A DNA stretch of 64,000 bases from Phaeobacter porticola (GTDB taxonomy: Bacteria > Pseudomonadota > Alphaproteobacteria > Rhodobacterales > Rhodobacteraceae), in NCBI RefSeq assembly GCF_001888185.1, contig NZ_CP016364.1:1550001-1614000 (forward strand), read 5' to 3'. Position numbers and translations under genes: made by a program. Positions 237 to 10,746 of this stretch are shown one piece after another (position 1 is the stretch's first letter; each line of letters starts with the position of its first letter). The notes under the pieces are model-generated. The model was not told the origin of the DNA. It searched no databases and was given only the letters and a program-made list of their open reading frames with translations.

Positions 237-1685
237 ATGCAGATTCGTGAGGCTCTCACATTCGACGATGTTTTGTTGGTACCGGCCGCATCCAGCGTGC
301 TGCCGAACACAGCGGATACCCGCACGCGGGTAACGGGCGCCATCTCCTTGAACATACCATTGCTCAGTTCGGCGATGGATACGGTGACGGAATATCGCAT
401 GGCGATTGCAATGGCTCAGGCCGGTGGCATGGGCGTCATCCACAAGAACCTGGATCTGGAAGAGCAGGCCCGACAGGTTCGCCGCGTCAAACGGTTTGAG
501 AGCGGCATCGTCTATAACCCGATTACCCTGACCGCAGATCAAACCCTCGCAGATGCTAAGGCCTTGCAGGAACGCTACCGCGTCACCGGCTTTCCGGTGG
601 TGGACAACGAAGGCCGTGTGGTGGGCATCGTGACCAACCGCGACATGCGCTTTGCCACCGATGACAAGACGCCCGTTTCGGTAATGATGACCTCTGACAA
701 CCTCGCGCTGCTACATGAGCCGGCAGAATTGGAAGAGGCCAAGTCGATGATGAAGGCACGCCGGATTGAAAAGCTTCTGGTCACCGACAGGGATGGCAAG
801 CTGACCGGTCTGCTGACCCTGAAAGACACGGAACAGGCGGTTCTGAACCCAACGGCCTGCAAGGACGATCTTGGTCGTCTTCGTGTGGCTGCGGCCAGCT
901 CTGTTGGTGACAGTGGCTTTGCACGGTCCGAGGCCTTGATCGATGCCGGTGTTGATATCGTTGTTGTCGACACGGCGCATGGGCACTCGGCGGGGGTGAT
1001 TGAAGCGGTGAAGCGGATCAAAGCTCTGTCCTCTGGGGTGCAGGTTGTTGCGGGAAATGTCGCCACAGCGGCCGCCACCAAGGCGTTGATTGATGCTGGC
1101 GCGGACGCGGTCAAGGTGGGGATCGGTCCAGGCTCCATCTGCACCACCCGTATGGTTGCGGGTGTCGGGGTGCCTCAGCTGACCGCGATCATGGATTGCG
1201 CTGGCGCTGCGGGAGATATCCCGGTGATCGCCGATGGCGGTATCAAATTTTCAGGCGATTTTGCCAAAGCCATCGCAGCAGGTGCGTCCTGTGCTATGGT
1301 GGGCTCGATGATCGCGGGCACCGATGAAAGCCCGGGCGAGGTGATCCTCTATCAGGGCCGTTCTTTCAAATCCTATCGCGGGATGGGCTCGCTTGGGGCA
1401 ATGGCGCGTGGTTCGGCCGATCGCTATTTCCAGAAAGACGCAGCTAGTGACAAGCTGGTGCCGGAGGGCATTGAAGGTCAAGTCGCCTACAAAGGCTCGG
1501 CAGGTGCGGTGGTCCATCAGTTGGTTGGCGGTCTGCGTGCGGCCATGGGCTATACTGGCTGCGCCACCGTGGACGAGATGCGCAAAAACTGCGAATTCGT
1601 CCGCATCACGGGCGCGGGTCTTAAAGAAAGCCACGTGCACGACGTGCAGATCACCCGCGAAAGCCCGAATTACCGTATCGGGTAA
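237..1685 (+). CDS. guaB: IMP dehydrogenase
   Basis: The product oxidises IMP to XMP with NAD, the committed step of GMP synthesis, in the cytoplasm. It is a full-length 482-residue enzyme. The N-terminal barrel start ([16 protein letters not shown]) is typical, a pair of CBS domains lies at about residues 90-200, and the catalytic loop GPGSICTT places the active-site cysteine at residue 302. The ATG is preceded by GGGGA at a good distance. The last 54 bp are duplicated 9 kb downstream, so the present 3' end of this gene was probably supplied by an integrated element, without changing the protein. Function is certain; the replacement of the 3' end is inferred. Confidence 0.97.
1632..1685 (+). 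repeat. attL-like direct repeat in the 3' end of guaB
   Basis: This 54-bp tract, ending with the guaB stop codon, is repeated at 10693-10746 with 52 of 54 positions identical. Both differences (AGC-CCG versus AGC-CCC, and GGG versus GGC) are synonymous in the guaB frame. Conserved 3' gene ends carried by an element to rebuild its target gene are the usual sign of integration by a tyrosine recombinase. The two tracts are therefore read as attL (here) and attR. Confidence 0.82.
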
Positions 1686-1760
1686 GCTGTAAAAATAAGG
1701 TGCTTCTGGGTTTTCTCTGGAGCGCCATTTTTTCCAAATATCAGGAAGTATCGTCCAGTT

Positions 1761-1800
1761 CAGATGCAATGTAGATGCATGGACTTATGTGTTAGATGCA
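1761..1800 (+). repeat. Left set of TAGATGCA repeats, candidate recombinase arm sites
   Basis: Three same-orientation octamers are seen: CAGATGCA at 1761, TAGATGCA at 1772 and TAGATGCA at 1793. The first two start 11 bp apart. The same octamer pair with the same 11-bp step occurs just inside the other end of the island (10636 and 10647). Tyrosine recombinases of integrative elements bind short arm-type repeats placed like this. The role is inferred; the repeats are seen. Confidence 0.6.
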
Positions 1801-1941
1801 GTCTTCAACGCCGGATCCCCAGGACCAACCCGTCGCAATCGCCACATAGCCAGCCTCAGTAAGATTCCTGGTCGGCGGGTGCGATTGTATTTGTTAGCTG
1901 TGGCGACCAGGCGGCCGTATGTGTGCGGTGTCACCGGCCCT

Positions 1942-2220
1942 CTAAACATTCGGATTGCCCTTAAATCTCCTCTCGACATGCTGCAGTTCCTGGTGTGCTG
2001 ACATCTCGTCGAGAGCCCACCGCAGCTGATGCATGAGCTCCAGGGCACCGCGCATCCGATCTCTGCGTTGCTTGGTGCCGGAGATGTAGAACGGGAACTC
2101 CTTGCCGTCCTCGGCGGCGGCATCTGCGACCTGCATCCACTCAGAATACTCGCTCCATGCGTCACTGAGTGCCTCGTGTATTTTCTCGATCTCCTGGTCC
2201 GTGATCGTTGTTGCTCTCAT
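1942..2220 (-). CDS. Hypothetical 92-residue protein in the guaB island
   Basis: I do not recognise this family. The gene is supported by an excellent Shine-Dalgarno sequence (AAGGAGG) about 6 bases before the ATG. The protein is charged, probably helical, rich in Glu, Arg and Met, with no signal peptide or membrane segment. It lies between the left end of the island and a decayed phage-type exonuclease gene on the same strand, so it may be a leftover of the element's own recombination or phage module. No function is proposed. Confidence 0.6.
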   Translation of the reverse strand: MRATTITDQEIEKIHEALSDAWSEYSEWMQVADAAAEDGKEFPFYISGTKQRRDRMRGALELMHQLRWALDEMSAHQELQHVERRFKGNPNV

Positions 2221-9241: not shown

Positions 9242-9255
9242 CTTTCGAAGGAAAT
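9242..9255. promoter_or_regulatory. Candidate operator for the DeoR-type regulator (site 2)
   Basis: CTTTCGAAGGAAAT differs from site 1 at two positions and is a weaker palindrome. It ends 4 bases before the regulator's GTG start and includes its ribosome-binding AAGGA, so bound repressor would block its own gene. Autoregulation is inferred. Confidence 0.5.
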
Positions 9256-9259
9256 TACC

Positions 9260-10024
9260 GTGCGACAGGATGTTATCCAGAGAAGAGATGAGATTGTCGC
9301 GCTTCTGTCTGAGAGCGACACGCTGTCGGCGATCGAGCTTTCGTCCGAGCTTGCCGTTTCTGTGCAAACCATACGGGCCGACCTGCGTGATCTTGACGAA
9401 GCGGGGCTTGTCCAGCGTCGTAACGGCTACGTTCGGCTGCGCCAGCAAAGTGAGAACATCGGCTATCTGCCGCGCGAAGGCATAGCGCGACAGGAAAAGC
9501 AGCGCATCGCTCTGGCGGTAAAAACCCTGATCCCCGATGGGGCGCGGGTGGCTCTGGGCACCGGCACAACGGTGGAAACTTGCGCACGGTTATTGGTCTC
9601 TCATAAAGATCTTTTCGTTGCGTCCAACAGCATCCATGCCGTCTGCGCCTTGCAACAGGCCCCCGGTGTTGCCGTTGAACTGGCAGGCGGAACCGTAAGA
9701 ATGCGCGATCTGGATATGATCGGCACGCCAGCTCTCGAATTCTTTGCAAGATATCGCGTCGATTACGCCGTGTTTAGCTGTGGCGGTCTGTCCGAGGAGG
9801 GCAGTGTTATGGATTATAACGCTGACGAGATGTCCGCACGCAAGGCCATCGCAGGCTGTGGAAAGAAGAGCATTCTGGTCATGGATAGCAGAAAGAACGG
9901 ATTGGACCTGGCGTTCCAGATGGGACATGTCTGGGACGTTGATGTCATCGTGACCGGAGCGAGGTTTTCAACGTCTATTGCGGAAAGCTGTTCCCGACAC
10001 AGTTGTCAGATTATCCAAGTATGA
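9260..10024 (+). CDS. DeoR/GlpR-family transcriptional regulator
   Basis: The 254-residue protein has the family's N-terminal winged helix (RRDEIVALLSESDTLSAIEL, then SVQTIRADLRDL) and a C-terminal ISOCOT-type sugar-phosphate sensor domain with ALGTGTTVETCARLL and the ELAGGTVR block. Start is GTG at 9260 with AAGGA upstream. Family members sense phosphorylated intermediates and repress catabolic operons. It is divergent from the importer operon, with matching operators in the shared 169-bp gap, so it very likely controls that operon. A phosphorylated effector would fit the two phosphatases at the operon's end. The effector is not known. Confidence 0.9.
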   Translation: MRQDVIQRRDEIVALLSESDTLSAIELSSELAVSVQTIRADLRDLDEAGLVQRRNGYVRLRQQSENIGYLPREGIARQEKQRIALAVKTLIPDGARVALGTGTTVETCARLLVSHKDLFVASNSIHAVCALQQAPGVAVELAGGTVRMRDLDMIGTPALEFFARYRVDYAVFSCGGLSEEGSVMDYNADEMSARKAIAGCGKKSILVMDSRKNGLDLAFQMGHVWDVDVIVTGARFSTSIAESCSRHSCQIIQV

Positions 10025-10692
10025 CTGTGCCGTTGATTGGCTGATGTCCGGCGTGATTGCCGAAACCTTGGGTGTGGACATTGGTTCGCGGAAGTTGGCC
10101 GCGGAGGACGCTGGTGGGCAGGATGAAGGAGCGGTATCAATCTGGTGGCGACTGCCTAATCGGGTCGCGCCTTGAAGTAATTTTATGCTGTTCAGACGAT
10201 GCGTTATTAGACATCTGGGTGGCGGTCGATACTGTCCTGCGCCGCGAAAACAGCTTCGGAGGGCCTGCGTCGCAACGATGACCATCTTGGTCTATATCCG
10301 CTTTGGGCCGAAAGCACCCTCTTCAAAAGGGGGCTTCCGGTGTCAGCTTGCGTCCTTGAATTCTGCATATTCTCCGCGCACTTGAACAGTTAACCGCAGG
10401 TATTGCCGGTGCGACAGCTGGCGTAACTGGAGAGAGACGCCAATTCCGTCAGAACGACGGAAGCAAGACAACGCTCATTTACCTCAAACAAAACTCGTAC
10501 ATCTCGACCCGATCCGGAAAGCGCTGGACGAAGAGTGGTGGCCGCAGATAGAGATGCACTGAAAAATTAGACTTGCGACTCGGCAATCCGAAAGTGAATG
10601 ACGAATGGACCGAAGCGCGAAAAATGGTCGAAAAATAGACGCAGGGTAGATGCAGATGGCTTGTAAGTTATTGAAAATAAATGAGTGATAAG
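10025..10692. other. Right-hand island tail without a clear gene
   Basis: No complete gene is seen between the DeoR gene and attR. An open stretch at 10360-10548 (plus strand, no obvious start) gives a protein-like but unrecognised sequence with TAGIAGATAGVTGERRQF and, later, TTLIYLKQNSYIS. An integrase gene would be expected near an att site but is not found, so the element has probably lost it and is fixed in place. Confidence 0.4.
10636..10654 (+). repeat. Right set of TAGATGCA repeats, candidate recombinase arm sites
   Basis: TAGACGCA at 10636 and TAGATGCA at 10647 start 11 bp apart, the same step as at the left end (1761 and 1772). A further AGATGCA is at 10552. They lie inside the island, close to attR, as arm-type sites should. 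Confidence 0.6.
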
Positions 10693-10746
10693 CACGTGCA
10701 CGACGTGCAGATCACCCGCGAAAGCCCCAATTACCGTATCGGCTAA
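10693..10746 (+). repeat. attR-like copy of the guaB 3' end
   Basis: This repeats the last 17 codons and stop of guaB ([17 protein letters not shown]) without the rest of the gene. It sits directly before the rsmB leader, so it is probably the original chromosomal guaB tail, displaced when the element entered and supplied a new tail at 1632-1685. Confidence 0.82.

Follow-up and report, generated by a model that had tools for sequence, protein, structure and literature searches.

A probable decayed prophage at the 3' end of guaB, with a foreign operon inside it, in Phaeobacter porticola

In the window analyzed here, a 64,000-nucleotide stretch of Phaeobacter porticola (NZ_CP016364.1, positions 1,550,001 to 1,614,000), the end of the IMP dehydrogenase gene guaB occurs twice. 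What is the DNA between the two copies, and how did it get there? A sequence-only reading had described a genomic island that entered guaB, replaced its tail, and later lost its integrase. Comparison with related genomes leads us to a more specific view: the island is very probably a decayed guaB prophage that holds a foreign operon.

The insertion site at the end of guaB

The 3'-terminal 54 bp of guaB (1632-1685) are repeated in the window at 10693-10746. The copies agree at 52 of 54 positions, and both differences are synonymous (CCG/CCC for Pro and GGG/GGC for Gly), as had been noticed from the sequence. A 169-base guaB-tail query had just two matches in the 4.2-Mb genome at an expect value (E) of ≤0.001, the second with an E of 7e-19. 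The target-gene end is thus directly repeated at both island borders, as for a tyrosine-integrase element at the 3' end of a gene.

The genus set comprised seven genomes, six besides the source. In all six congeners, guaB and rsmB adjoin without interruption, with gaps of 49, 50, 50, 50, 51, and 68 bp. Because the two genes are adjacent in every congener, and because the displaced tail keeps the native 54-bp spacing to rsmB, we conclude that 1686-10692 is inserted DNA. The empty site ruled out both a chance repeat and core genes in 1686-10692. Together with the displaced tail beside rsmB, it bears out the earlier proposals that guaB and rsmB are native neighbors and that the element entered guaB and replaced its tail. 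By this comparison, the last bases of guaB derive from the inserted element.

An element-borne, terminator-like hairpin lies right after guaB and presumably ends its transcription. A similar hairpin follows guaB in 4 of 14 other element-type loci and in 0 of 6 congener controls. Just 5 of the 15 element-type loci have a strong one, so a terminator behind the rebuilt guaB is not a general rule.

An assembly or duplication artefact would make the second tail a local duplication without any element. Nothing in the window favors it, and elsewhere some tail duplicates do lie at contig edges (genomes G107 and G144). Against it stand the empty site in 6/6 congeners, the phage-derived ends and integrase remnant between the repeats, the arm-type sites at both ends, and the single 3.65-Mb contig of the source genome on which the island sits. 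We give this account practically no chance.

Phage-derived ends, arm-type sites, and an integrase remnant

The first 1.5 kb and the final 0.26 kb of the island have a counterpart in Cribrihabitans marinus DSM 29340 (G394). There, a complete element of about 40 kb lies between guaB (tail at 367018-367091) and a second tail copy (407261-407305) before rsmB. Among the 19 proteins scanned, PHROG matches included small and large terminase subunits, portal, neck, major tail, tape measure, distal tail, tail, and tail-fibre proteins. The same scan matched exonuclease VIII, a DNA methyltransferase, a helicase, a sigma factor, an excisionase-like protein (E 6e-6), and an integrase; the rest match families of unknown function. 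From this gene content, we read the element as a siphophage-like prophage.

The left end of the island aligns to this prophage in four blocks, with nucleotide identities of 84% (1605-1933), 75% (2209-2315), 93% (2454-2702), and 68% (2836-3155). Positions 1795-2669 are also 77% identical to an Aquimixticola element (locus L021). The right end is 87.5% identical to the C. marinus prophage over 10438-10740. Both ends are therefore phage derived. Between the third and fourth blocks, 5.2 kb of the C. marinus prophage is absent from the island. This deletion of about 5.2 kb produced the fusion open reading frame (ORF) at 2628-3032 (minus strand) by joining an exonuclease VIII fragment to the C terminus of another phage ORF. 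Its product ends in DEADLLGMLSDRKH, as does that of C. marinus locus L016 1786-2055, and it matches PHROG exonuclease VIII (E 2e-32), so the phage-type exonuclease remnant recognized earlier is indeed one. A comparison of 1686-3400 with 50,697 phage records gave no match, and a scan of viral contigs for integrase relatives found none. In Aquimixticola soesokkakensis, two contigs with guaB-element ends stop in ORFs (L021 4769-5044 and L022 9335-9613). By eye, we take these ORFs to be pieces of IS3-type transposases; the integrase runs into the contig end there.

The integrase was lost only in part. As had been supposed, the island holds no whole integrase gene, which C. marinus has. However, a frameshifted C-terminal portion, about the last 68 codons, persists beside attR. 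In more than one frame, its translation matches residues 348-428 of the Cribrihabitans integrase, a region that covers the stretch with the invariant tyrosine.

Five octamers lie inside the island ends. On the left are CAGATGCA at 1761, TAGATGCA at 1772, and TAGATGCA at 1793, the third starting 21 bp after the second. On the right are TAGACGCA at 10636 and TAGATGCA at 10647. Allowing up to one mismatch, we found the pattern TAGATGCA-N3-TAGATGCA at just two places in the 64 kb (1761 and 10636), one per end, and 0 of 100 shuffles reached two. The matching spacing reported from the sequence therefore holds, and the pair is unique to the two ends. From their sequence and conservation, we assign the octamers as putative arm-type sites. 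In both the island and Cribrihabitans, the first right octamer begins with the TAG stop codon of the integrase. This does not hold for Maritimibacter EAC76, in which that octamer is in another frame. Several elements also have GGAAC/GAAC words, repeated at intervals of about 10 bp, between the guaB stop and the arm octamers (by eye; e.g., L086, L081, L078, and L087). These are possible excisionase sites.

Such well-kept sites could mean that the island still works. Like the cis-mobilizable elements (CIMEs), it would then be a nonautonomous element, with att cores and arm sites that are still recognized by an integrase which a related guaB phage supplies as helper. All five octamers have at most one mismatch each, the core is preserved at 52/54, and genomes G106, G124, and G574 likewise retain integrase C termini of 49-81 residues beside a tail copy. 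However, recent decay would preserve the sites just as well, and there is no known helper, as neither the rest of the source genome nor the six congeners yielded an integrase of this clade. We therefore regard helper mobilization as quite unlikely.

An integrase clade that uses the guaB tail

A survey for two tail matches took in 42 of 394 family genomes, chosen by eye from the match table. Seven second copies were judged att-like (G000, G048, G106, G124, G135, G335, and G394), and two, at contig edges, are ambiguous (G107 and G144). The other 33 are short matches (19-45 bp, E 1e-4 to 0.008), of which 27 fall on a different contig and the remaining 6 lie at a distance of 73 kb or more. The three places inspected (G232, G270, and G327) had neither guaB nor rsmB nor an integrase. 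The repeat is thus not common without islands, an objection that the sequence-only reading had itself foreseen. The survey undercounts, because it missed G295, whose tail copy adjoins its integrase.

Integrase searches extended the picture. Four of the 394 genomes match the Aquimixticola integrase fragment at E ≤ 1e-8, all with an adjoining guaB-tail copy. An integrase C-terminal query matched 5 of 335 genomes and added G106 and G124. At the order level, 21 of 292 genomes matched at E ≤ 1e-5, five of them strongly (including the already known G394). A tail copy stands beside an integrase or its remnant in G419 and G574 and about 830 bp off in G551; G320 holds an integrase N-terminal piece only, without a tail. 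Three of the 16 weak matches were checked, and none had a guaB tail. Only integrase C termini are left near the tail copy in G124 and G574. Contig G574:C2 has two such remnants about 315 kb apart (L119 9323-9661 and L120 12681-12967). One has a guaB-tail copy but neither guaB nor rsmB within 14 kb, and the other lies just before rsmB; this guaB site may be part of a genome rearrangement.

A scan of genome contigs with an integrase alignment yielded 11 relatives, in genera that we take to belong to the Rhodobacterales. A guaB-tail copy follows the match by 45-97 bp in 9 of 11. In Maritimibacter UBA9533, the contig ends after the match, its final bases resemble the tail start, and guaB is 36 kb off on the same contig. 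The Limimaricola integrase has no tail copy downstream, yet arm motifs trail the Limimaricola guaB. Elements with the same TAGATGCA octamers and an integrase at the guaB tail, which had been anticipated, do exist: the gene is open in Cribrihabitans marinus and Maritimibacter EAC76 and frameshifted in Tropicibacter.

In a tree of the 11 integrases, these three TAGATGCA users group with a support of 1.0 and 73-81% mutual identity. The Rhodovulum integrase is an outlier (37-44%), and the remaining seven, including the CTGAAGCA user, are 65-83% identical to each other. Therefore, the arm motif varies with the integrase subclade, whereas the guaB tail serves as the core throughout. Behind guaB, at least two arm-motif copies occur in 13 of 15 element-type loci, a descriptive count, since the second motif was picked after inspecting the loci. 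Direct repeats of TAGATGCA are found there in the source island, Cribrihabitans, Maritimibacter EAC76, and Tropicibacter. Aquimixticola, Paracoccus, Sulfitobacter, Limimaricola, Jannaschia, and G124 have TGCATCAG-N8-CTGATGCA plus a further copy, or close variants. A Maritimibacter metagenome-assembled genome has two CTGATGCA, Maritimibacter UBA9533 has CTGAAGCA types, Rhodovulum has TGGATGCA, and G106 and G135 have one weak copy each. In the congener controls, 2/6 showed a stray single match and 0/6 a pair.

Residues R234, R331, H353, and Y377 are invariant in 9/9 aligned integrases; we assume them to be the catalytic residues expected of a tyrosine recombinase. The integrase matches a PHROG integrase (E 7e-21) and no Pfam family at E ≤ 0.001. 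Among PDB sequences, the matches were weak, the best being a XerC-like recombinase (E 0.001). Among phage records, there was one match, at 22% identity. A structure model was poor, with a mean predicted local distance difference test score of 55.

The guaB site holds varied elements. A Paracoccus beibuensis element of about 50 kb is a second prophage, with matches to terminase, portal, head protease, tape-measure, and exonuclease VIII. The Rhodovulum adriaticum element of about 25 kb (G404:C1:193300-218500) has Cas1e, Cas6e, Cas8e, and Cas3e matches, which point to a type I-E system of clustered regularly interspaced short palindromic repeats and Cas proteins (CRISPR-Cas). The Maritimibacter UBA9533 element (G402:C167), at least 36 kb long, has matches to a type II methylase and restriction enzyme and to the TmtA, MkoA, and (weakly) LmuB defence models. 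Two smaller islands hold metabolic genes. That of G106 (8.7 kb) encodes a coenzyme A-transferase, a tripartite ATP-independent periplasmic (TRAP) permease, and an SMP-30-like protein, with a 60-residue integrase C terminus beside attR. That of G135 (9.7 kb) encodes a molybdopterin oxidoreductase, a cytochrome c, and a two-component system; its tail copy is worn, and neither an integrase nor rsmB was found in the fetched stretch.

These elements bear on the nature of the founder. It might have been a genomic island with the same integrase that brought the operon as its payload into guaB, the integrase decaying afterwards. The CRISPR-Cas island in Rhodovulum and the defence-rich island in UBA9533 show such cargo in the clade, and the guaB-tail copies of G106 and G135 likewise enclose metabolic genes but no whole integrase. 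However, the left end of our island is collinear with the C. marinus prophage, exonuclease VIII fragment included, and what is left of the integrase belongs to the prophage type (87.5% nucleotide identity). We consider an island founder unlikely.

Several observations nonetheless weigh against a decayed prophage. The Rhodovulum and UBA9533 elements look like islands rather than phages, and because they share the integrase clade, a full phage is not required as the founder. We found no phage structural genes in the island, whereas the C. marinus relative has them; we therefore speak of a prophage remnant and not of a prophage. Outside guaB and rsmB, neither G106 nor G135 showed similarity to the C. 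marinus prophage. No compared locus explains the junction stretches 3156-3230 and 10079-10430, and none of the six congeners is of the same species. Even so, we take a temperate phage to be the most likely carrier.

The cargo operon and the wider setting

The features of the island are collected in Table 1. Pfam and NCBIfam matches confirmed the metabolic operon that had been recognized between the ends. The permease and binding protein are nearest to putative 2-aminoethylphosphonate importers in NCBIfam, with scores far under the curated cutoffs. The operon may import and dephosphorylate a phosphorylated organic compound.

Table 1. Features of the guaB island and its flanks (window positions)
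Feature	Position	Strand	Basis
guaB (IMP dehydrogenase)	237..1685	+	482-amino-acid ORF; 95-98% amino acid identity to guaB of 6 congeners
attL core, rebuilt guaB tail	1632..1685	+	52/54 identical to 10693-10746
Prophage left end, with deletions	1686..3155	.	68-93% nucleotide blocks to C. marinus prophage; 77% to Aquimixticola
Terminator-like hairpin and T run	1699..1734	+	-14.7 kcal/mol hairpin 1699-1726, then ATTTTTTC
Putative left arm-type sites	1761..1800	+	Cribrihabitans: identical order and spacing; Tropicibacter, Maritimibacter EAC76: gaps 3 + 13 or 12 bp
Fusion ORF: exonuclease VIII fragment and C terminus of another phage ORF	2628..3032	-	PHROG 412, E 2e-32
HAD phosphatase (PNKP-like)	3311..3775	-	PF25109, E 2e-24
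Histidine phosphatase	3772..4317	-	PF00300, E 6e-32
MBL-fold hydrolase	4314..5381	-	PF12706, E 1e-10
ATP-binding cassette (ABC) transporter ATPase	5382..6431	-	PF00005, E 2e-34
ABC transporter permease, two fused domains	6419..8122	-	PF00528, two stretches
Substrate-binding protein	8122..9090	-	PF13343, E 1e-24
DeoR/GlpR-type regulator	9260..10024	+	PF00455, E 2e-34
Junction stretch	10079..10430	.	No match past 10078 in cargo loci or before 10431 in phage ends
Integrase remnant, last ~68 codons, frameshifted	10431..10638	+	87.5% nucleotide identity to C. marinus right end (L018) over 10438-10740
Putative right arm-type sites	10636..10654	+	Pair with 11-bp step also in Cribrihabitans and (one change) Maritimibacter EAC76
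attR core, displaced native guaB tail	10693..10746	+	Second own-genome tail match; 54 bp before rsmB as in congeners
rsmB, native neighbor of guaB	10801..12009	+	Adjoins guaB in 6/6 congeners

Where does the operon come from? Positions 3313-10025 align in one piece, gene for gene and at 79.6-79.8% nucleotide identity, to plasmids in the 20 records listed, all from Phaeobacter inhibens (e.g., pPGA2_239). At least 80% of the cargo query is covered in 27 matching plasmid records. Two of the seven genus genomes carry the permease: the source, in this island, and one congener, on contig C2 (226.7 kb). The MBL hydrolase was found at E ≤ 1e-60 in 12 of 394 family genomes, the source included. We compared the operons of the six most similar of the 11 other genomes, of the congener, and of one plasmid. 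All eight align in one piece (6.4-6.9 kb, 70-85% identity), and the neighbors differ among the five copies for which they are listed. Since the operon is intact in differing surroundings, it is a module that moves on its own. In one relative (L065), similarity to the island extends from 3231 through 10078. A transposon-borne operon was rejected: there is no repeat pair at the operon borders, and 10026-10440 had no match among plasmid records. No plasmid covers 80% of the G106 cargo, so we do not extend the plasmid link to that island.

We suggest the following history. A temperate phage with a guaB-specific tyrosine integrase would have entered by recombination between its attP and the guaB 3' end. 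The attP would have brought a spare guaB tail, a stop codon, and the terminator-like hairpin. Because of the spare tail and stop, guaB would have stayed whole, with the original tail displaced to the far side beside rsmB. Decay of the prophage would have followed: about 5 kb was deleted, which joined two genes of the left end, the structural genes disappeared, and only about the last 68 codons of the integrase were left. The middle is now occupied by the 6.7-kb operon, a self-contained unit (ABC importer, two phosphatases, MBL hydrolase, and DeoR regulator) that in the genus is also found on a plasmid of about 240 kb. We infer that the founder was a full phage and that the cargo came after or during the decay.

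The kind of element is known, and its members look new. One close parallel is the dusA-associated integrases (Farrugia et al. 2015, PMC4482086), described as one tyrosine-integrase family of prophages and genomic islands that target the dusA 5' end. In both systems, one integrase family serves prophages and diverse islands at one housekeeping gene; however, the guaB site is a 3' end. GIsul2 and ATE-1 are described in PMC5704250 as integrative elements at the guaA 3' end. They too have tyrosine integrases that target the 3' end of a purine-pathway gene, but that gene encodes GMP synthase and those elements are mobilizable, unlike the phage remnant at the IMP dehydrogenase gene. Like the CIMEs described in PMC7563491 and PMC5704250, our island keeps attL and attR, has lost recombination genes, and has cargo between. 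Those derive from conjugative or mobilizable elements, whereas these ends derive from a prophage, and we therefore do not file the island as a CIME.

Among Rhodobacteraceae prophages, 35% are said to carry auxiliary metabolic genes (PMC8224337). The main text of that study, on the same bacterial family, gives tRNA targets and does not mention guaB, dehydrogenase, or Cribrihabitans. Phage insertion at guaB has precedents. A lambda secondary site in Escherichia coli guaB, as cited in PMC4129442, is at the promoter, unlike the 3' end here, and blocks expression. A helper prophage labelled Ana29.79.guaB appears in a survey said to be of Enterobacteriaceae (PMC10111431); by the naming rule stated there for fis, the label presumably means a guaB target. 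We found no description of a guaB hotspot in Rhodobacterales, a weak absence, since subscription journals were mostly uncovered and supplements lay outside the scope.

A broader idea is worth stating, although we find it very doubtful as a whole. The Rhodobacterales guaB tail might be a dock that turns phage scars into integrase-free cassettes. The att cores, the arm sites, and the last 50-80 integrase codons would persist. Metabolic or defence modules would replace the middle, and a newly arriving guaB phage could excise, carry, or swap these modules in trans.

The locus matters in several ways. It adds guaB to the housekeeping-gene ends that serve as integration hotspots. Integrases with one core target and four arm motifs (TAGATGCA, CTGATGCA, CTGAAGCA, and TGGATGCA) offer a natural series on the reading of arm sites. 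The island anchors a plasmid-type operon in the chromosome inside a phage scar. Finally, prophages and islands with CRISPR-Cas, defence, or metabolic genes share a single site in this marine group of ecological importance.

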